Shown: in pieces, positions 6,165-23,772 of the stretch | Numbering within the stretch: the stretch's first letter is position 1 | How the letters are laid out: each line of letters begins with the position of its first letter | Virus record (IMG/VR): IMGVR_UViG_3300037882_002764 | Coordinates: 1 to 24,786 of that record | Source: a virus | Length of the DNA stretch: 24,786 nt | Direction: 5' to 3' (one strand) | Translations under genes and position numbers: made by a program | Notes under the pieces: generated by a model | What the model was told of the DNA's origin: nothing | The model's input: the letters and a program-made list of their open reading frames with translations, nothing else | The model's database searches: none

Positions 6165-7741
6165 GCCGCCATCGCTTGCCCGGCTGCCTGCATCGCCTCG
6201 GGGCTTTGCGCTGCCAGCATGGCGGCCTGCTGTGCCGCTGCCTGTTGGTCCATGGCTTCGCGATCCTTGTCGCTGGGCAGCATGCGCTCCGGAATGGCCA
6301 TGCCACGGGCAATTTCCGGCACCATCACGTCAAGTTTCGCATAGCGGTCCACACCCGCCGCCTTGGCCTGCACCATCATCAGGGCGAGGTCGATGTATTG
6401 CGTCAGCTTCTGCATGCGCTCGGCTTCGCGCGCCAGCGCCATGGGGCTGGCCACCTGCACGTCCACAAACATGCGGTCAATGTCCACCGTGCCGGGCAGC
6501 TGCTTTGCCTCATAGGCAATTTCCATCACCCGCTTCACCGCAGGCACCACGATTTCCATGATCATGCGGCCATAGGCCCCCATGTGGTCGCCAGCCATGC
6601 GCTTCACACGTTCAAGAACTTCCGTGGCCGAACGCACAGCTGCCGTGTCGGGTGGCAGCTGGTTGTCGTTCATGCCCACCTGAATTTCCATGGCCATGTC
6701 TTTGAAGATCAGCTGCGTCAGATCCACGCGCGGGTCTGGAAAGCGTGTAATGCTGGGTCCCAGTGTGCCGCCATTGCGGGCCACCTTGTTCACAGCGCCG
6801 GGATAGGTCAGGAAGTTGTCAGGGCTGAAAACCCCATCATCCACGGCAGTGTAAATGCCCAGCATGGCAATGGCTGCACCTTGCAGCGTCAGCTTCTTGC
6901 CGGTGTTCAGGGCTTTCACCGTGGGCATCACCAGCATCAACGGCCCACGGCCATAGGTTTCACCCGGCACGTTGAAGTGCCGTGGCGTCAGCCAGGGGCA
7001 GGTGCGGGTTTCGCCGCGGCGCAGTTCAATGCCCGCCGTTTCCGCGCCGTCCTTGATGGAGGCTATGCGCACCCAGCGTTCGGCCTTGGCGTCAAACACC
7101 GTGTCCTGGAAAAGCGTCACATCGCTTTCCGGCTTGTCGGCCAGGTTCTTCTTCAGCTGCTCCGAAAACTTATCGGTGCCGAATTCATCGGCCAGCGCTT
7201 GCAGGGTCCACTTGCGCGCCCAGAAAATGCCGTTCACCTTGTTGTAGCCGTCCGAGGTCAGGTCAACCTCATCCAGCGGCACAGCAATGAAGCGGCTCAT
7301 GCCGCGCTTGTCAGCATCAATCAGCATGCAGCCGGTAGAGGCCATCACATCAAGGCACATTTCCGCCAGTGCCGTGTCCCACTCACCCGATTGAAAATGC
7401 GCACCCACAATCAGTTGCGTCACTTCCAGCTGCGCAGCCATTTCCTTTTGCTGGTCGGGCTGCATCGTGGCCTTGGCCAAAGGGCCGGGCGTGAGGCTGA
7501 AGAATTGCTGGCCAGCGGGTGCAATGTCCTGCGCCAGCCGGTTGGCCCCGCGAAAGGCCGAAACCATGGCCGTGTGGTCAAACACCCGATTGGTGCGCTT
7601 TTCGCCCTTGCCAGTCTGCTGCACACCTTTGCGGAAGGGAATGCCATATTCATAAACATCATCCAGCAAAGGCTGGAATGCAGCCTTTTCCGACTTCGCG
7701 GCCTTGCGCCGCCCTTCCATGGTGGCAAGGGAAATGGCCAT
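6161..7741 (-). CDS. Portal / head-to-tail connector (T7 gp8-like)
   Basis: This encodes 526 aa, close to T7 gp8 (536 aa). It has the family landmarks: an N-terminal helical segment (FQPLLDDVYEYGIP), a PRHFNVPGETYGRGPL block followed by P..KALN around residues 255-280, and RSATEVLER near residue 375. The C-terminus is Ala/Gln-rich (residues 490-526), as is common for podophage connectors. The dodecameric portal forms the packaging vertex and binds terminase during packaging, then the tail adaptor. The gene begins 3 bases after the preceding small gene and overlaps the following one. Confidence 0.9.
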   Translation of the reverse strand: MAISLATMEGRRKAAKSEKAAFQPLLDDVYEYGIPFRKGVQQTGKGEKRTNRVFDHTAMVSAFRGANRLAQDIAPAGQQFFSLTPGPLAKATMQPDQQKEMAAQLEVTQLIVGAHFQSGEWDTALAEMCLDVMASTGCMLIDADKRGMSRFIAVPLDEVDLTSDGYNKVNGIFWARKWTLQALADEFGTDKFSEQLKKNLADKPESDVTLFQDTVFDAKAERWVRIASIKDGAETAGIELRRGETRTCPWLTPRHFNVPGETYGRGPLMLVMPTVKALNTGKKLTLQGAAIAMLGIYTAVDDGVFSPDNFLTYPGAVNKVARNGGTLGPSITRFPDPRVDLTQLIFKDMAMEIQVGMNDNQLPPDTAAVRSATEVLERVKRMAGDHMGAYGRMIMEIVVPAVKRVMEIAYEAKQLPGTVDIDRMFVDVQVASPMALAREAERMQKLTQYIDLALMMVQAKAAGVDRYAKLDVMVPEIARGMAIPERMLPSDKDREAMDQQAAAQQAAMLAAQSPEAMQAAGQAMAA

Positions 7742-11569: not shown

Positions 11570-13543
11570 CTAGAACCCCTCCACATCCTCAATCACATCA
11601 TCATTCATCACCGCCCTGCCCGCCGTGCGGCCCGTGGCGACATCCAGTGCAGCCAGGTCCAGCAGCAGGCAGCGGCTGGAATGGCGGTTGATGGTCACCC
11701 GGTTCTGGTTGCCCAGGCCTTTGAGAAACACGCCATCCGGCGCATCGCGCATGGCATTGGCCCAGGCACCATGGCCCGATGGCCCGGCACTCCACGGCGA
11801 GCCTTCAAAGATGCGCGCCAGCTGGGGCGAGGCCGTTGGAATGGCCAGTATCAAGCCCCGTGGCCGCGTCATGCCCATGGGCCATTTGATTTCGCGCACG
11901 TCGATCAGCCGCAGCCCCACCTGCGCCAGCTTGGTGTTGCAGGACTTGAACCCGCCGTCACTGTCGCCGGCCTCATAGTTTTCCAGCACCGCACCCACCG
12001 TCAGCTGGCCGCCACCGCGCCACATGTCGATGTTGCGGGTGAACAGGTGGCCAATGCAGCTGGCCCAGTTGTCGGTCTGGTCCTCATGTTCTGGCAGCGA
12101 GGCAATGGCCAGTTCCTTGGCCCAGGCGGCAATGCCATCGCCCACGGGATAGCCAAAGCGCGCCAGCCCTTCTTCGCCCAGCAGGATATGGGCACAGCAC
12201 AGCAGCGTGCCGAAGGTCTTGCAGCCGCGCTCATCATGGCCACCGTCCTGCAGGGCCTGCCGGTACAGCGCAAACAGCGCGTTGAACTGGGGCCATCCAT
12301 CCATCATGCGCCGCATGACCTTGCTGCCCAGTTCATCATCATCACGCAGCACCGGCTTTTCGCCCCGGTCGCGTTCAGGCGGCCTGCGCAGCGAGAGAAT
12401 GGCAAGGCGCGAAAGGTCAGCCGGGTTGATGCCCGGCAGGTTGATCATGGACCCCAGGAAGGATGATCGACACTCAAACTCAATGCCATTGTGGTTGCTG
12501 CCACCGCGCAGCATCACACCACCCGAATAGCTTTCGCGCATCAGCTTGAAAATGCGGAAGGCCATGCTGCTGTCCGACTGGTTTTCCAGTTCATCAAGGC
12601 CAATGGGCCGCGCGTCCTGGTTCACCTTCTGATAAATGCCCGCCGGTGTGGTGTCCGTGGTGGACAAGATATAGGGCCCAAAAAACACTTTCAGAATGTC
12701 TTGCAGGGTGGACTTGCCGCGCCCCTTGTCGCCCACCACCACGATGGAGGGGCGCACTTCCATGGCGCCGGAAAACATGGCCACGCCCAGCCAGCCCAGC
12801 AGCAGCAGGGGGTCCGTCTTGGGCCGTGCCCAGCTGAAACGGTTGAACAGGTCCAACATCTGTTCAGCCGCATCTTCATTCACCGGCTGGTGCCAAGGGT
12901 GCAGGATGGCGGCCATGCGCGGATAGACCTTGCCCGACACTTCGCCCGGCACCTGCATCACGCCATTGACATAGAGGCTGTCACCGCAATGCACCACCAG
13001 GCGGCCCTGATCATCCATCCACACGCCACGCCCGCGCACCGCGTCCAGATGGTCGAAAATGCCCTTGCGATAGGCCTCTCCCCACAGGGATTGTCGCACC
13101 CTCTCGGTGCGGAACGTGTCCACCTTGGCAGGGCCAAGGGGCTTGCCATCCTTGGTCTTGGGGGCTTTGCCGAAGCGCGGCCACGCCCAATAGACATACC
13201 CAATGCGGTCACCGAAGATGCGCTCAATCACGCCCTGGCCGATTTGTTGTGACGCGGGCAGGCAGCACACCTGCCCTGCGGCATCCAGCAGCCAGAGGTC
13301 CCCCTTGGAATGGCCCAGCACCTGCACCGGGCAGCCATCGGGAAATTCATCGGCCTCAGGCTCACCACCGCCTTCACCACTGCCATCACCCAGCGACCGC
13401 AGCCCCCACATGCCCGGCGGAATGCCATTGCGGCTGCCGCCAATGGGCGGGTCCACCTCAGGCTTGCGCAAGGCCTGAAGCGTCACCGCCCCAACACCTT
13501 GCGCAATAATGGCCCTCACCTGCTGGCGGCCCTTGTCAGTCAT
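11570..13543 (-). CDS. Replicative helicase-like ATPase (SF3-like)
   Basis: This encodes 657 aa. The ATPase core starts near residue 240, with Walker A VVGDKGRGKSTL at about 268-279 and a Walker B-like GLDELEN at about 312-318. A sensor-type segment follows (SSFLGSMINLPGINPADLSRL, about 360-380), as in SF3/VirE-type phage helicases. The N-terminal third is beta-rich and unassigned, and the C-terminal third is also unassigned. Together with the upstream primase it should drive phage DNA replication. GGGG-type ribosome binding is visible before the ATG at 13543. The SF3 placement is by motif spacing; no motif is missing outright. Confidence 0.75.
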   Translation of the reverse strand: MTDKGRQQVRAIIAQGVGAVTLQALRKPEVDPPIGGSRNGIPPGMWGLRSLGDGSGEGGGEPEADEFPDGCPVQVLGHSKGDLWLLDAAGQVCCLPASQQIGQGVIERIFGDRIGYVYWAWPRFGKAPKTKDGKPLGPAKVDTFRTERVRQSLWGEAYRKGIFDHLDAVRGRGVWMDDQGRLVVHCGDSLYVNGVMQVPGEVSGKVYPRMAAILHPWHQPVNEDAAEQMLDLFNRFSWARPKTDPLLLLGWLGVAMFSGAMEVRPSIVVVGDKGRGKSTLQDILKVFFGPYILSTTDTTPAGIYQKVNQDARPIGLDELENQSDSSMAFRIFKLMRESYSGGVMLRGGSNHNGIEFECRSSFLGSMINLPGINPADLSRLAILSLRRPPERDRGEKPVLRDDDELGSKVMRRMMDGWPQFNALFALYRQALQDGGHDERGCKTFGTLLCCAHILLGEEGLARFGYPVGDGIAAWAKELAIASLPEHEDQTDNWASCIGHLFTRNIDMWRGGGQLTVGAVLENYEAGDSDGGFKSCNTKLAQVGLRLIDVREIKWPMGMTRPRGLILAIPTASPQLARIFEGSPWSAGPSGHGAWANAMRDAPDGVFLKGLGNQNRVTINRHSSRCLLLDLAALDVATGRTAGRAVMNDDVIEDVEGF

Positions 13544-17406: not shown

Positions 17407-17621
17407 GCTGCCGCAGCCTTCTGTGCGGCCAGGTCATCCAGAACCTTGGCCAGTTTCGCCATGGTGGCATTGAAGGCCACAAGGCTGGGTGAGTTCAGGC
17501 CACGCCGCCAGCGGCTCATGGTGGCCTTGGGCACACCGGCCTTGCGATACATGGCAGTTGGAGACAGGCCCAGATCACGCGCCCTTGCCTCAAGTGCTTC
17601 AATGTGCTGTAAGTGTTCCAT
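17403..17621 (-). CDS. Cro-like HTH regulator
   Basis: This encodes 72 aa from the ATG at 17619-17621. An HTH fills residues 18-41 (GLSPTAMYRKAGVPKATMSRW). It is divergent from the CI-like gene, with about 124 bases between them, the classic immunity arrangement. A longer frame upstream (to 17855) would run into the repressor gene and is not credible. AGGA lies directly against the ATG, too close for a normal ribosome binding site, and a good -35 box lies about 33 bases upstream, so the message may be nearly leaderless. It heads the leftward early operon and probably represses the repressor gene. Confidence 0.75.
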   Translation of the reverse strand: MEHLQHIEALEARARDLGLSPTAMYRKAGVPKATMSRWRRGLNSPSLVAFNATMAKLAKVLDDLAAQKAAAA

Positions 17622-17745
17622 TCCTGTAACGATTGGACTGATTTGGCTGTTCCTGTCAAGCCCACTCATGGAACAGTTTGTGGAAATGCGTATGATGTAC
17701 AACCCGGCCATCGTTTCAACACCACCATGTGTGGGGAGCCGGATA
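17622..17745. promoter_or_regulatory. Divergent cro/cI control region
   Basis: For leftward transcription there is a perfect -35 TTGACA (plus-strand bases 17654-17659) but only a weak -10. For rightward transcription a TATGAT -10 lies at 17691-17696 with a poor -35. The inverted pair CTGTTCC (17647-17653) and GGAACAG (17670-17676) overlaps these elements, and TTCCTGT occurs twice in direct order (17621-17627 and 17650-17656). These are the likely operators for CI and Cro. Confidence 0.6.
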
Positions 17746-18339
17746 TTGTCATCACTCAAGGAACAGATTGAGGCATGGGCCAAGGCCGAAGTGCCAAAAT
17801 CCCACTTTTCCCGCAATGAACTGGCCCGCAAGGCAGGCATCAGCCCGGCCACCATTCATCGCATCATGGGCCTTGATGAAAGCTATGCCGCCACCCCGAA
17901 GTGGCAGAATGTCTCAGCCCTTGCCAAGGCGCTTGGCGTCAAGCCACCCAGCATTCCCCATCCCGATCATGACGATGGACTGGCAGAACCAGAAGCCATT
18001 GCCATCGTGCCATCCCCCTCAAGTGAGAGCATCGCACCCTCGCCAAACCAGACGGAATGGAAGGTGAAGGGCGCAAGTCTGGCCAGCATGGGCTATATGC
18101 CGGGCGACCATTTCATTCTCGACCAGTCCGTGCAGCCCCAGAACCGCGATTGCGTGGTGGCGCAAGTGGTTGATTACGAAACGGGAACCGCCGAAACCGT
18201 GCTGCGCGTCTTTGTTGACGGCTTCCTGGTCACGCCCAATTATATCATCGACGGCACACCACGTCTGTTTGTGGACGGCAAGATCGTGCACATCATGGGC
18301 ACCATCATCCGAAGCTGGCGCGCCCGCTCCACCTCCTGA
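17746..18339 (+). CDS. CI-like repressor, HTH plus S24/LexA-like domain
   Basis: This encodes 197 aa if started at the TTG at 17746, which has GGGGAG 7 bases upstream and lies downstream of the TATGAT box. ATGs at 17668, 17686, 17692 and 17695 are in frame but lie in or before the promoter. HTH: residues 21-41 (FSRNELARKAGISPATIHRI). The C-terminal domain aligns with LexA: KVKGASLASMGYMPGD puts Ser111 at the catalytic serine. The catalytic Lys position, in TVLRV, is Leu153, and no Ala-Gly or Cys-Gly lies in the linker. So it probably dimerises but cannot self-cleave. It should hold lysogeny by repressing the leftward early promoter. Confidence 0.8.
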   Translation: MSSLKEQIEAWAKAEVPKSHFSRNELARKAGISPATIHRIMGLDESYAATPKWQNVSALAKALGVKPPSIPHPDHDDGLAEPEAIAIVPSPSSESIAPSPNQTEWKVKGASLASMGYMPGDHFILDQSVQPQNRDCVVAQVVDYETGTAETVLRVFVDGFLVTPNYIIDGTPRLFVDGKIVHIMGTIIRSWRARSTS

Positions 18340-18376
18340 CATGCGTCAGAATGTCCCAATTGTGAGATTATGTATT

Positions 18377-18392
18377 TGTTTCACATGAAACA
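18377..18392. promoter_or_regulatory. parS-like 16-bp dyad
   Basis: TGTTTCACATGAAACA: arms of 7 bp are perfect with a CA spacer. It matches the canonical bacterial chromosomal parS (TGTTTCACGTGAAACA) at 15 of 16 bases, differing only in the centre. It lies 38 bases after the repressor stop in the 163-bp gap before the rightward gene cluster. It could bind host ParB, a phage ParB-fold protein, or be a phage operator of similar form. Confidence 0.6.
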
Positions 18393-18407
18393 TTTTTACA
18401 CGGTAAC

Positions 18408-18425
18408 TGTTTCACGATTGAAACA
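18408..18425. promoter_or_regulatory. Second dyad with the same arms
   Basis: TGTTTCACGATTGAAACA: the same 7-bp arms as the parS-like site, with a 4-base spacer (CGAT). Its centre is 32 bp from that of the first dyad, about three helical turns. The different spacing would weaken a normal ParB fit and supports an operator reading as an alternative. Confidence 0.55.
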
Positions 18426-18427
18426 TA

Positions 18428-18441
18428 CTGTTGCAAAACAG
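18428..18441. promoter_or_regulatory. Third, shorter dyad
   Basis: CTGTT-GCAA-AACAG, with 5-bp arms, follows the second dyad at 18 bp centre to centre and keeps the TGTT/AACA outer bases. It is probably a weaker member of the same site cluster. The rest of the gap (18442-18502) shows only the ribosome binding site of the next gene. Confidence 0.4.
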
Positions 18442-18502
18442 AAATAGCACCTGCATCCTGCCTCCACTGATTTGCACCCGCAAATCACCGATGGAGGATG
18501 AT

Positions 18503-18925
18503 GTGAACCACGAAGACTTCAATACCCGCGTCATGGCACGGCTCAAGGCCAGCCTGCCGGATCACATGGAAGTGCTGCGCCCCTTTCTGGTGGAGGCGCT
18601 GCAACAGCCAACCGCCGAAGCGCGGCTTGCCTGCGTGAGAACCGTCATCAACCAGCACACGGCGCACATTGGCAATCTGTTGACCAGCTTCAACATGACC
18701 ATTTACCAGAATGCCGACACTGCCGAACGCAACATCACGCGGCAGCTGGACTACCTGAAAAGCACAATGCCGGGCGTACTGGCCAATATTCGCAATGGCC
18801 TCTCGCTGCCCGATCAGGTGAACCTGTTCAGCCTGCAAACCGGCCAGCCCGTCGCCTTCGACTTCCGCAACCACCTTACGCCCGCGAAGCCAGACAGTGG
18901 CCGCGCCTCGGACATTGGAGGGTGA
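18503..18925 (+). CDS. Hypothetical protein, first gene of rightward cluster
   Basis: This encodes 140 aa from the GTG at 18503, which has GGAGG 5 bases upstream (18493-18497). An ATG at 18491 and a longer frame from 18431 are possible but lack such a site. The sequence is mainly helical (VNHEDFNTRVMARLKASLPDHM; TAERNITRQLDYLKSTMPGV). No family recognised. It is first after the dyad cluster, so its expression is likely controlled by it. The stop overlaps the next start (TGATG). Confidence 0.6.
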   Translation: MNHEDFNTRVMARLKASLPDHMEVLRPFLVEALQQPTAEARLACVRTVINQHTAHIGNLLTSFNMTIYQNADTAERNITRQLDYLKSTMPGVLANIRNGLSLPDQVNLFSLQTGQPVAFDFRNHLTPAKPDSGRASDIGG

Positions 18926-19146
18926 TGGCCATGTTGCAGCTTGCTGTTGAATGGCGGTGGATCGTTGCCCTGATCGGGCTGATGCAATTTGCCGCCGCGT
19001 TTGAGGACGTGCGCATGGAAGGCCAGGGCCACAAGATCAACATTTTCCACGCCGCTGCCCATGTGGCGCTGGGTCTTTTGCTGCTGTCCACCGCATGGCA
19101 TCTGGATGAAGCCGCCACGTGGCTGGAAGCCGTGGCCGCACCATGA
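18925..19146 (+). CDS. Small membrane protein
   Basis: This encodes 73 aa from the ATG at 18925 (GGAGGG just upstream; the ATG at 18931 is better spaced and also possible). It has two hydrophobic stretches, about residues 9-26 (WRWIVALIGLMQFAAAF) and 42-58 (FHAAAHVALGLLLLSTAW), parted by a charged, His-containing loop. It is likely an inner-membrane protein with two spans. It is not next to lysis genes. Function unknown. Confidence 0.6.
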   Translation: MAMLQLAVEWRWIVALIGLMQFAAAFEDVRMEGQGHKINIFHAAAHVALGLLLLSTAWHLDEAATWLEAVAAP

Positions 19147-19385
19147 CCGACACACACCGCACCCCCTCGCTGCCACGCATCAGCCCCCATGCCGCACGCC
19201 CCACGGGCATTGTGGTGCAGCCCAACAGTGCCGATGAGATTGACCGCCTTCTTGTGTCGGTGCCGTTGCGCCTGCGCCGGGGCCTGTGGAAACAGGTGGG
19301 CGAACGCGCCGCCCGCCAGCGCATGAACACGGCAGGCTTCATCCGTACACTGATTGAACGTGAACTGGAAACACCCGCACCATGA
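19143..19385 (+). CDS. Ribbon-helix-helix-like small protein
   Basis: This encodes 80 aa with an ATGA overlap to the upstream stop. Residues 36-43 could form the beta strand (LLVSVPLR), followed by two helices at 45-59 and 62-75 (NTAGFIRTLIEREL), the layout of CopG/Arc-type RHH DNA-binding domains. It may regulate the rightward cluster or antagonise integration. The call is by secondary-structure pattern only. Confidence 0.6.
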   Translation: MTDTHRTPSLPRISPHAARPTGIVVQPNSADEIDRLLVSVPLRLRRGLWKQVGERAARQRMNTAGFIRTLIERELETPAP

Positions 19386-19672
19386 TCACCGCCAGCACCA
19401 CACCCGCCACCACCACACAGGTCACCATCAGCATCACGCTGGAAAACCGCCTGGGCGAAAGCATCACCCTCAAAACCATTGCCCTGCCGGAAGGGGCCAG
19501 CGCAGCACCCCTGCACGCCAGTTACAAGGGCCGCACCTTCCTGATCGACCCCGAACGCTGGACCATCAAGGCAGGCCACATCGAAGCGACATACCGCGAA
19601 GAAGCCGAAGCCGACAACCTCAACGTCAGCAACGTGCCAGTGATCAGCACCACACGGGAGAAAGCAGCATGA
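19382..19672 (+). CDS. Hypothetical beta-rich small protein
   Basis: This encodes 96 aa, ATGA-coupled to the previous gene. The N-terminus is Thr-rich (MITASTTPATTTQ) and alternating hydrophobic residues (VTISITLENRLGESITLKTI) suggest a beta sandwich. No motif recognised and no signal peptide. Its place in the chain between two DNA-binding candidates does not define its role. Confidence 0.6.
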   Translation: MITASTTPATTTQVTISITLENRLGESITLKTIALPEGASAAPLHASYKGRTFLIDPERWTIKAGHIEATYREEAEADNLNVSNVPVISTTREKAA

Positions 19673-19827
19673 AGGGGAAAGTCACATTGCGCTGCCCACA
19701 ATGCGGCACAGAAGAAAAGAACGTTCCAACAAAAACCTATTGGAACACGACGCCACCGTGCTGCGCCGTCTGCAACACTGCCCTGATTGTGACGGACTTT
19801 AAGCGCGAGAAGGAGAAACCACAATGA
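19669..19827 (+). CDS. Small zinc-ribbon protein
   Basis: This encodes 52 aa, start MKGKVTLRCPQCG, with GGGAG about 9 bases upstream. Cys9 and Cys12 form one CxxC knuckle; Cys32 and Cys35 (CCAVC) form the second, a probable zinc ribbon. Both ends are ATGA-coupled to neighbours. Proteins of this size in phages are often nucleic-acid binding or translational regulators of the Com type. The specific function is unknown. Confidence 0.65.
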   Translation: MKGKVTLRCPQCGTEEKNVPTKTYWNTTPPCCAVCNTALIVTDFKREKEKPQ

Positions 19828-20165
19828 TCCCCCTTCGCCAAAGCTCTGGGGGACACGCCCCCCTCACCTACACCTTCACCGACCTCACCGCCGCCCTGCA
19901 ACTGGGCACGGCGAAGACGGCGCGGGCGCGGCTGGCAGCGTTTGAGGCCCATGGCTTTCCAAAGGCCCTGCCCGGCCACGGCCACAAGCTGTGGAGCAAG
20001 CCGCAAGTGGACGCCTGGCTGGCCAACTGGGGCAGCTATCTTTCTTCTCCCGCCATTTGCGCGGGAGAAGGTGCCCGCAGGGCGGATGAGGGAACGCCAC
20101 CTCAGAACATCACCACCATCACCCAGCAGCTGGAAGCTGCCTACTTCGCAAGGAAAACAGCATGA
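19824..20165 (+). CDS. Excisionase-like winged HTH protein
   Basis: This encodes 113 aa. Residues 14-72 have the pattern of small AlpA/Xis-type winged-helix proteins: YTFTDLTAALQLGTAKTARARL, FEAHGFPKALPGHGHKLWSKPQVDAWLANW. The gene is two genes before the integrase, so a directionality role is plausible. The C-terminal part (about 73-95) is encoded by a palindromic repeat and is probably disordered. ATGA overlaps at both ends support the frame. Confidence 0.65.
   Translation: MIPLRQSSGGHAPLTYTFTDLTAALQLGTAKTARARLAAFEAHGFPKALPGHGHKLWSKPQVDAWLANWGSYLSSPAICAGEGARRADEGTPPQNITTITQQLEAAYFARKTA
20042..20092. repeat. RIME/REP-like palindromic repeat inside the excisionase-like gene
   Basis: CTTCTCCCGC (20044-20053), 7 bases, GCGGGAGAAG (20061-20070) form a perfect 10-bp stem. 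It is followed by GTGCCCGCAGGGCGG and ATGAGGG. This order (CTTCTCCC stem, GGTG, CCC/GGG hairpin, CGGATGAGGG) is that of short palindromic repeats common between genes in Hyphomicrobiales. Here it lies in frame in a gene. Confidence 0.6.
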
Positions 20166-20884
20166 CCGAGAAACCCATCCTGTTTTCCGGTCCGATGGTG
20201 CGGGCCATTCTTGAAGGCCGCAAGACTATGACGCGGCGGGTGATTACCAGCGCGCGTGCGCACCGCACACGAGAGAGCATACCTTTTACCATGAAGGGCG
20301 GGCAGCTTGATCGCGCCCTGCAAGGTGCAGATCGTTGGAAGCACTTGGGACTGAACACGTGGACTTGGAAGGCAGACGCATATGAGCATCAACTCCTTGC
20401 AACTCGCACGAACTGGATTGCTGACATTGGTTATGCCGTGGGCGACACGCTTTGGGTGCGCGAGACTGCTTGGATTTGCCCGCCTGGGTGGACCGACACG
20501 CCAGTCAATCCACGTGGGCCAAAACGGCAAGAGGTGGCGTACAAGGCTGATGACCGCAAGGGTGCAACTTCGGAAGCGGCACGCGACTACAATCTCAAAC
20601 TTACGCCATCCATCCACATGCCCCGTTGGGCCAGCCGGATCACCCTGCGCGTCACCGCCGTGAAGGTCGAACGGTTGCAGGACATCAGCGAAACGGATGC
20701 AAAGGCGGAAGGCATGTATCGCGCTGCCGATGACAATTTATGGACTTTTGATAGCCATAGTGGATGGCGCTGTGCATCGCCGGTCTACGCTTTCATTGAA
20801 CTTTGGGAAACCATCAACGGCCCCGGCTCATGGGACGCCAACCCATGGGTGGCCGCCTATACCTTTGAACACGTAAAACAATGA
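20162..20884 (+). CDS. ASCH-like phage protein
   Basis: This encodes 240 aa. It has the known phage layout: KPILFSGPMVRAILEGRKTMTRR (start of the ASCH-like fold), VGDTLWVRET (about 97-106), PSIHMPRWASRITLRVTAVKVERLQDIS (about 149-176), AEG and a C-terminal F.ELWE.ING..SWDANPWV block. ASCH domains resemble PUA and are thought to bind RNA or modified nucleotides. The phage role is unknown. ATGA overlap with the preceding gene. Base composition is slightly more AT-rich than its neighbours, hinting at separate origin. Confidence 0.7.
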   Translation: MTEKPILFSGPMVRAILEGRKTMTRRVITSARAHRTRESIPFTMKGGQLDRALQGADRWKHLGLNTWTWKADAYEHQLLATRTNWIADIGYAVGDTLWVRETAWICPPGWTDTPVNPRGPKRQEVAYKADDRKGATSEAARDYNLKLTPSIHMPRWASRITLRVTAVKVERLQDISETDAKAEGMYRAADDNLWTFDSHSGWRCASPVYAFIELWETINGPGSWDANPWVAAYTFEHVKQ

Positions 20885-20955
20885 CCCTCGCAGCGCCCGC
20901 CCGGTCCATGCCGATTGATCCTCCCCGGCCAGCCCTCCGGCGCGTGGCGCGCGCG

Positions 20956-21004
20956 CCTTCCCCTGCTCTTTCTGTGCGCGTATCATGCCCGGAGCAGGGG
21001 AAGG
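20956..21004 (+). promoter_or_regulatory. 13-bp-stem hairpin in the integrase leader
   Basis: CCTTCCCCTGCTC (20956-20968) and GAGCAGGGGAAGG (20992-21004) are perfect inverted repeats separated by 23 bases. They lie in the 149-bp spacer between the ASCH-like gene and the likely integrase ATG, 29 bases before it. No U-tract follows. It could act as an attenuator or a translation-control hairpin for integrase; the rest of the spacer shows no clear promoter. Confidence 0.6.
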
Positions 21005-21033
21005 CACATTCCCCCACAAAGGGAACGCTCACC

Positions 21034-22362
21034 ATGCCACGCAAAGCCACCGCCTCCATCCTCCACGTGCACTGGCGCACCCGCGACGACTGGGCAACCG
21101 CCCATCCGCGTTTCGCACCGGGCCCACGCTTGCAGGCCCTTGGCTTCAAGTCCCGTGACCTGAAACATGATGACGGCACCTGGTACAGCTTCGAGGAAGC
21201 CGCCGCCTTCTCCCGCGCTGTTGAGAATGAAGCCACGTCACGCCAGCACCAGCAGCAAAAGCCCGCCCGTCTGCCTGCCATCGCGCGCGCCCATGAAAGC
21301 CGCACCTTAAGCCAACTCTGCCATGACGTGTTCACCCTGCCGGAATTCTCAGGGCGCACATTGGTGGAAGGCAAGCGTGTGCGCGCCGCTCTCTCTGCCG
21401 TCACCGTGAAGGGCTATCGCTATTGCGCCACCAGTGTGGAAGCCGCCTGCCTGCGCATGCAGGAACAGGCCAGAACCCGCCTCAGCCTGTGGCACACGCC
21501 CGCCGCTGCCCTCACCACGCCCCTCATGCAGGCCCTGCTGCATGACGTGGAGCGCCATTCCGGCCTGGCCAAGGCAAGGGCCGTGCGCGCCTTCTTGAGC
21601 CAGATGTGGACGCGCCTTGGCCGCCGCGAACCCGGCACCAACCGCCACCTGTTTGACGACCTGGAACGCATGCCCAGCCTGCCGGGCCGCGTCACCCCGT
21701 GGGAGCCGGAACAATTCTGGGCCATGGTCGAAGCAGCGGACGCCATGGGCCTGCCCGCCATGGCCGATAGTTTCTTCTGGGGCGTCATCACGGGCCTGCG
21801 CCAGACCGACCGCCTGCGCATGACGCGCGCCAGCATCAGCGACACACACATCACCATCACCCCCAGCAAGACGGCGAATAAAACCCAAGCCGTGGTGCAG
21901 GTGAAATATGCAGGCCTGTTGCGCCAAAGGCAGGAAGCCGCCTGGGCACGGCGCCAAGGCTGGCCCGTGGCATGGCCCCACATGCTGGCCGATGAGCAAC
22001 GCCAAAGGCCATGGCCCGAGGAAGCCACCGACTATCGCCACACCTTTGCCAGGGTGCGTGAACAGGCCGTGAAGCTGCTGCCATCCTGCGCCACTCTGAG
22101 AGATCAGGACCTGCGCGACACCAACCAGACCTGGCTGGACCGGGCCAACGTGGATCCCGAACTGATGCAACTGGCCGCAGGCCACAGCTTCAACCGCCAC
22201 ATGAGCCAAATCCAGAAGCGCCACTACGTCGCCCAGAACCAACCCAGACTGGATGCAGCAACCGACCTGCTCACAGCCTACCTGCTGAAACACATGCCAA
22301 CCCACCCCACCGTCATCCCCGCGAAAGCTGGGAACCAGCTTCCACAGGAGAATGAGGGATGA
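21034..22362 (+). CDS. int: Tyrosine recombinase / integrase
   Basis: This encodes 442 aa from the ATG at 21034; an upstream in-frame ATG at 20881 would place the leader hairpin inside the coding region. Catalytic candidates: Arg256 in ITGLRQTD, Lys279 in the beta hairpin (PSKTANK), Arg361 in DLRDT (with Asp359 in the usual His place), His384 in GHS and the nucleophile Tyr398 in KRHYV. The N-terminal part is the arm- and core-binding region. It recombines attP (about 1.2 kb downstream) with a host tRNA-Lys gene. The last 15 residues (HPTVIPAKAGNQ...) come from a REP-like repeat. Confidence 0.85.
   Translation: MPRKATASILHVHWRTRDDWATAHPRFAPGPRLQALGFKSRDLKHDDGTWYSFEEAAAFSRAVENEATSRQHQQQKPARLPAIARAHESRTLSQLCHDVFTLPEFSGRTLVEGKRVRAALSAVTVKGYRYCATSVEAACLRMQEQARTRLSLWHTPAAALTTPLMQALLHDVERHSGLAKARAVRAFLSQMWTRLGRREPGTNRHLFDDLERMPSLPGRVTPWEPEQFWAMVEAADAMGLPAMADSFFWGVITGLRQTDRLRMTRASISDTHITITPSKTANKTQAVVQVKYAGLLRQRQEAAWARRQGWPVAWPHMLADEQRQRPWPEEATDYRHTFARVREQAVKLLPSCATLRDQDLRDTNQTWLDRANVDPELMQLAAGHSFNRHMSQIQKRHYVAQNQPRLDAATDLLTAYLLKHMPTHPTVIPAKAGNQLPQENEG
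22301..22353. repeat. REP-like palindrome at the 3' end of the integrase gene
   Basis: It contains CCGTCATCCCCGCGAAAGC followed by TGGGAACCAGCTTC. A stem of CCCCGC with GCTGGG (one C-T mismatch) and a GAAA loop lies at 22317-22332. This is the widespread GTCATCCCCGCGAAAGCGGGG-type element that encodes VIPAKAGIQ-like tails. It ends in ACAGGAGAAT, which supplies the ribosome binding site of the next gene. Confidence 0.65.
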
Positions 22363-23516: not shown

Positions 23517-23561
23517 CTTTTAATCATGTGGTCGCGGGTTCGATTCCCGCCCGGCTCACCA
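23517..23561 (+). other. attP: attP core: 3' half of a tRNA-Lys(UUU) gene
   Basis: The stretch CTTTTAA (anticodon loop, 23517-23523), TCATG, variable TGGTC, T-arm GCGGG-TTCGATT-CCCGC (23534-23550), acceptor strand CCGGCTC, discriminator A and CCA (23559-23561) lays out exactly as the 3' half of tRNA-Lys(UUU). The bases 5' of it do not pair as a tRNA 5' half would, so it is not a complete tRNA gene. It is the integration core carried by the phage. The rest of 23455-23772 holds no gene. Confidence 0.85.
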
Positions 23562-23582
23562 ATCTTTTCAATCACTTAGCAT

Positions 23583-23640: not shown

Positions 23641-23681
23641 CGCCGCCGAAAATCACGTGGTATGTTCCGCACCCGTTCCAG

Positions 23682-23707
23682 AAAAAAGGCCCCGCCGAAG
23701 CGAGGCC
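23682..23707 (-). terminator. Rho-independent terminator of the late leftward genes
   Basis: On the minus strand the order is GGCCTCGC, TTCG loop, GCGGGGCC (23707 down to 23688), then TTTTTT (23687-23682). The 8-bp stem has one G-T pair. It lies 65 bases after the stop of the leftward gene at 23773 and keeps late transcripts out of attP and the rightward operon. Confidence 0.85.
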
Positions 23708-23772
23708 AGTCATGGGAGGAAACGCCCAAAAGGGCAATGCGAAGAACAGACCTTACGCTACACACAAAACCT

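Follow-up and report, generated by a model that had tools for sequence, protein, structure and literature searches.

A cluster of inverted repeats (dyads) at positions 18377-18446 of a viral sequence is best explained as a composite phage control region, in which the phage's own operators stand beside one conserved parS-like dyad. The sequence analyzed, hereafter called the window, is the complete record of a virus in IMG/VR and 24,786 bases long. The analysis is one of sequence inference throughout, and the probability of the composite reading was put at about 0.6. In a temperate phage, the stretch would serve the rightward (integrase) operon as its promoter-operator. Dyads 2 and 3 would be tandem 18-bp operators, 21 bp apart, for a Cro- or CI-like regulator of the phage. 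Judged from the sites, a third operator copy over the cro start would allow the same regulator to switch the cro, or lytic, side and the integrase side together. Dyad 1 would be a separate site beside the same promoter that persisted through a change of operator class. Its reader may be a conserved protein that modulates the integrase promoter, either from the phage (for example the operon's HTH protein, or the repressor bound at a second spacing) or the ParB of the host.

The features concerned are collected in Table 1. Minus-strand genes matched PHROG families of tail, head-tail adaptor and major head proteins and of primase, with a weak terminase match, and the plus strand gave a weak match to integrase. 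The C-terminal half of the CI-like protein was read by us as S24/LexA-type. The dyad cluster lies 3' of the CI-like stop (18339) and 5' of the rightward operon GTG (18503), so a preliminary description of the sequence was right to place it between the repressor and the rightward genes. The G+C content of the dyad-bearing stretch (18340-18459) is 37% versus 61% overall. A simple promoter scan at the place of the cluster in the window gave no passing promoter. A perfect hairpin, TGATTTGCACCCGCAAATCA, at 18468-18487 lies ahead of the rightward operon's ribosome-binding site and is a possible leader element. About 1.2 kb 3' of the integrase gene, the sequence GGTTCGATTCCCGCCCGGCTCACCA (23528-23562) resembles a tRNA 3' end and is a possible attachment-site core; ARAGORN found no whole tRNA. 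The Rfam suhB/mmgR sRNA model matched the minus strand at 23673-23742 with 50.8 bits (gathering score 41). This stretch is also terminator-hairpin-like, and a plasmid search with it returned one Methylobacterium record, 32% covered. Since we take suhB/mmgR to be an alphaproteobacterial family, the match is a hint at the host of the phage.

Table 1 Positions of the dyads and of the genes discussed in the text
Feature	Position	Strand	Remarks
ParB_N-like (IDGQHR) phage protein	15961..16881	-	Considered as binder, disfavoured
Cro-like HTH gene, 72 aa	17403..17621	-	HTH_26, E 6e-4, 20.4 bits (cut-off 22); diverges from CI-like gene
Third site of dyad 2 class, over cro start	17614..17631	.	TGTTCCATTCCTGTAACG; three arm mismatches to dyad 2
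CI-like repressor	17731..18339	+	HTH, then C-terminal half; start codon uncertain
Dyad 1, parS-like	18377..18392	.	TGTTTCACATGAAACA; 2-bp spacer; kept in L002
TTTACAC adjoining dyad 1	18395..18401	+	Identical in L002
Dyad 2, probably an operator for a regulator of the phage itself	18408..18425	.	TGTTTCACGATTGAAACA; 7-bp arms, 4-bp spacer; not kept in L002
Dyad 3 in 18-bp register, probable second operator	18429..18446	.	TGTTGCAAAACAGAAATA; three arm mismatches to dyad 2
Leader	18467..18502	+	Contains GGAGG and the hairpin TGATTTGCACCCGCAAATCA; almost the same in L002
Rightward operon to integrase	18503..22362	+	GTG start; small genes, HTH protein, integrase
Operon HTH protein	19824..20165	+	AlpA/Xis-like is our own label
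Integrase	20881..22362	+	Within the rightward operon

Dyad 1 equals the canonical parS TGTTTCACGTGAAACA at 15 of 16 bases, the sole mismatch being a central G to A, and dyad 2 repeats its 7-bp arms around a 4-bp spacer at a distance of 32 bp between centres and 31 bp between starts. Both dyads are real and are confirmed as first described. For dyad 3, the centre distance of 18 bp from dyad 2 was also correct, but the shorter form given for it (CTGTTGCAAAACAG, 18428-18441) fits less well than an 18-bp site like dyad 2, which begins 21 bp, or about two helical turns, after dyad 2 (repeat D1, spacing 21). The pattern TGTTTCA-N0-8-TGAAACA was found in the record at dyads 1 and 2 only and in none of 100 dinucleotide shuffles. 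The record has 22 listed perfect dyads with 7-bp arms and spacers of 2-8 bp, a figure that includes overlapping registers of the same dyad; dyads 1 and 2 are the sole non-overlapping pair with equal arms among these. When the window was scanned for further parS-like 16-mers with up to three mismatches, none was found besides dyad 1. The observation of the dyads is sound; that dyad 1 is a parS in identity is a tentative possibility.

The whole 24.8-kb record was scanned for operators with the arms TGTTTCA/TGAAACA, allowing up to three mismatches and spacers of 0-8 bp. With a 4-bp spacer and up to three arm mismatches, three sites were observed (17614, 18408 and 18429), all in the immunity region; 60 shuffles gave a mean of 0.57 such sites and a maximum of 3. 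A 5-bp spacer with up to three mismatches also gives three sites, scattered at 11935, 12618 and 21650, and it is therefore the place of the 4-bp-spacer sites, not their number, that is evidence. Outside the cluster, the arms matched with a 2-bp spacer at one place, 21893, inside the integrase gene and with three mismatches. The pattern GTTNCA-N4-TGNAAC, devised after looking, has exact matches at 17615 and 18409 only; with one mismatch allowed it has three, a number that 7 of 100 shuffles reach. Two characteristics of immunity operators are present: one dyad class is shared by the cro/CI region and a further early promoter (17614, 18408 and 18429), and CI- and Cro-like HTH genes are adjacent, with HTH matches just below the Pfam cut-offs. 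These sites support the reading of dyads 2 and 3 as putative operators of the phage's own, with one regulator at both arms. The earlier suggestion of an operator that resembles parS is supported for dyads 2 and 3, the 18-bp class of which recurs over the cro start and nowhere else at that stringency.

Relatives were sought in viral contigs with CI, the ParB-like protein, integrase and the leader. The sole near relative found was IMGVR_UViG_3300049924_000399 (28,162 bases; hereafter L002), with an integrase 43% identical and the gene order of the window, namely cro, CI, operon, HTH protein and integrase. The CI proteins are 57% identical in the C-terminal half, over the part compared, and 24% in the N-terminal half; the CI frame of L002 is interrupted. 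Between the CI stop and the operon of L002, at the same place as dyad 1, lies a parS-like dyad, TGCTTCACGTGAAACT (6456-6471). It equals canonical parS at 14 of 16 bases, with the canonical CACGTG centre and one difference in each arm, and is the only parS-like site with up to three mismatches in the whole L002 record. In both phages TTTACAC follows directly 3' of this dyad. Aligned to L002, the block of dyad 1 and TTTACAC scored 16.5, which was reached in 1 of 2000 shuffles. For the whole block upstream of the leader the score was reached in 8 of 2000 shuffles, and for the dyad 2-3 block in 465 of 2000. The ungapped dyad 1 core alone scored 12, reached in 60 of 1000 shuffles and not significant. 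The operator-like dyad of L002 is different (GTGCATATAARCAC); it occurs in the rightward promoter as well as over the start of cro, within a 29-bp repeat whose two L002 copies are 76% alike, and GTTNCA-N4-TGNAAC with up to one mismatch was absent from the 17.4-kb L002 locus. A sigma-70-like TTGACA-18-CATAGT (10/12) lies just 3' of dyad 1 of L002. Judging by this one pair, the operators seem to have changed and dyad 1 to have been retained. Conservation of the parS-like arms, proposed earlier as a test, was thus found at the same place in one near relative.

Six distant relatives (L004, L005 and L008-L011) carry no parS-like site with up to three mismatches in their whole records. Dyads 1 and 2 were found together in none of the viral contigs searched for the pair, genome-contig scans with integrase and CI alignments gave no relative, and tblastn of CI and integrase against named phages gave no match. 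Two further observations concern L002. Three copies of GATTTGACAATAGTTGTAACAG lie exactly 46 bp apart at 6326-6463, and the parS-like dyad has its centre where the third 46-bp period ends. The L002 record also has a C4 antisense RNA (RF01695; 70.6 bits, L016 2891-2974).

Several points count against the composite reading. Besides the weak ungapped core, the 5-bp-spacer sites, the shuffles that equal the one-mismatch pattern and the lack of a passing promoter in the simple scan, the conservation of dyad 1 comes from one pair, with only one near relative, and dyads 1 and 2 have exactly equal arms, which would be odd if they were read by different proteins. The likelihoods given here to the candidate readers concern dyad 1 alone. 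The identity of the 7-bp arms would be explained if dyad 1 were a further operator of the same phage regulator in a 2-bp-shorter spacing and its parS likeness were due to chance. The starts of the dyads (18377, 18408 and 18429) are moreover 31 and 21 bp apart, near three and two helical turns, which would put them on one face of the DNA. However, a second 2-bp-spacer copy of GTTNCANNTGNAAC with up to one mismatch was sought in the record and not found, and L002 keeps dyad 1 despite a different putative operator. This explanation is possible without being the expected one. Alternatively, dyad 1 may be the site of a conserved operon protein, likeliest the HTH protein, that activates or autoregulates the integrase operon. 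The two phages share this protein, at 45% overall and 53% across its best 66 residues; it matches phrog_668 ('HTH DNA binding protein') weakly, with E values of 0.0013 and 0.03, and the upstream position of dyad 1 would suit an activator. The predicted structure of the protein was unusable (pLDDT 43.5), and its binding would leave the parS match unexplained. We consider such a role, for the HTH protein or another conserved factor, rather unlikely.

The ParB_N-like (DGQHR) protein encoded in the same record was considered as well; it would read the dyads as a phage centromere. Its ParB_N match is 17.2 bits against a cut-off of 26.3, it has no ParB HTH domain at E 0.01, and its predicted structure was unusable (pLDDT 35.2). 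The ParB with ParB_N and HTH domains that a phage-borne ParABS system would have was thus not found for the phage. Moreover, L002 has the site and no phrog_1033 match at E 1, and four phages with a homologue of the protein lack any site within two mismatches of canonical parS. L002 and these four phages disfavour the protein as binder, and its part in reading the dyads is very improbable.

If dyad 1 were a working parS, host ParB would load there, slide along the phage DNA, and repress or tune the integrase promoter or tie the phage to host segregation. The palindrome TGTTTCACGTGAAACA with central CG, which marks chromosomal parS, is found exactly in neither phage: the window has a CA centre and is otherwise identical, and L002 has CG and two arm differences. 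The agreement at the same place in both phages (15/16, and 14/16 with the CACGTG centre) nonetheless favours host ParB. In a study on Burkholderia cenocepacia ParB-c1 (PMC5450999), some single-arm changes of parS are bound like wild type, among them each of the L002 changes, T3C in one arm and T1A in the other. Symmetrical changes of parS-c1 abolished binding, except at 1-16 and for the 5-12 transition, and natural parS variants differ at positions 5 or 1 and less at 7 or 10, according to the same study. The intact arm may, the authors warn, do the binding in those single-arm probes, and L002 is changed in each arm. The earlier proposal of a host ParB site gains from the arms conserved in L002 and loses by the central G-to-A change of the window, which is absent from the changes given as tolerated in the available text of PMC5450999.

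Other points on host ParB come from Pseudomonas aeruginosa. The half-parS GTTTCAC occurs once in dyad 1 and once in dyad 2, and P. aeruginosa ParB is reported to bind such half-sites at many places scattered over the genome; when 25 of these were changed, only two genes nearby were altered (PMC10419367). At parS3 and parS4 the same protein is reported to repress the genes 3' of these sites (PMC7022226). On the other side, the parS likeness was judged against canonical parS, which may not be that of the phage host, the comparison has one relative only, and a full-text literature search (at the level of titles and abstract openings, with few subscription journals) yielded, among the matches listed, nothing on a phage that has host-type parS and lacks a ParB; no paper with the exact dyad was found in it. 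A functional parS at dyad 1 is a possibility to be kept in mind, and not the outcome that we would predict.

The frequency of parS in viral DNA was examined by scanning viral contigs for TGTTTCACRTGAAACA. At least 120 stretches were obtained, and all 120 were examined. The canonical CG centre was found in at least 85 and the CA/TG centre in at least 35, with both together in none of these. The same stretches hold 2761 copies of ACGT against 7982 of ACAT plus ATGT, so that the 35 others would predict about 12 CG loci. By this rough control canonical parS is about sevenfold commoner among the census matches than expected (85 versus about 12), a point in favour of host ParB; some of the contigs may be host fragments, and near-identical contigs (for example L060 and L064) were unmerged before the counts. 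Based upon crude gene calls among the census matches listed, CG sites were intergenic in 65 of 110 cases, compared with 53 of 167 control 7-2-7 palindromes (p 8e-6). For CA sites among the matches listed the count was 19 of 35, a weak difference from the same controls (p 0.02), and the intergenic share of all bases in the census stretches was 20% by the same crude calls. ParB_N was above cut-off in one of 45 CG records examined (from at least 85), with weaker matches in two more, and in none of 28 CA records examined (from at least 35), with one weak match; many of these records are fragments, so the absence of ParB_N proves little. Integrase was observed in only 3 of 50 CG records examined, and the census set is therefore not mainly composed of phages like the window. 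Five canonical parS sites each lie within about 0.9 kb, near terminase genes, at L039 2657-3444 and L080 10535-11462.

A large terminase of the searched family was present in 26 census contigs, all selected for carrying the motif and taken from among the census matches listed, and 16 of these terminases were at least 55% identical to that of L041. The parS site lay at most 150 bp before terL in seven of the 16 (L041, L052, L054, L075, L111, L132 and L058) and elsewhere in nine; the centre of the seven sites is CG in six and TG in L058. Four named records with terL 57-64% identical were not selected by the motif. One of them, HTVC027P, has a site, with one mismatch, intergenic and about 4 kb before terL, and the other three have none. 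MinM2 (terL 48%) has no site. These counts do not bear out the idea that a phage clade has parS fixed in place before terL.

Reading of dyad 1 by host ParB would let the phage sense chromosome segregation, or exploit it, at its lysogeny switch. It appears unlikely to us that a docking site for host ParB is retained by these temperate phages next to the integrase promoter, ParB thus entering the lysogeny decision, and, more broadly, that real parS sites occur in phages that lack their own ParB. Since canonical parS is commoner than expected in viral contigs and often intergenic, many genomes can be used to ask whether phages employ host ParB. Should dyad 1 be only an operator, it would be a caution against sequence-based parS calls in phages.

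The window shares with lambda-like immunity operators one dyad class placed both at the cro start and at the other arm's promoter, tandem copies spaced by about two helical turns, and adjoining CI- and Cro-like genes. It differs from them in that its second promoter drives the integrase operon, 3' of the repressor gene and co-oriented with it, and in that a different, conserved parS-like dyad lies beside the operators. With the chromosomal parS of ParABS systems the window shares a 16-bp palindrome at 15 of 16 bases (L002, 14 of 16). Unlike chromosomal parS, the site of the window has a CA centre for CG and is a single copy in a phage, and any cognate ParB is putative. The half-parS sites of P. 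aeruginosa have GTTTCAC in common with dyads 1 and 2, and differ in being scattered over a host genome (PMC10419367).
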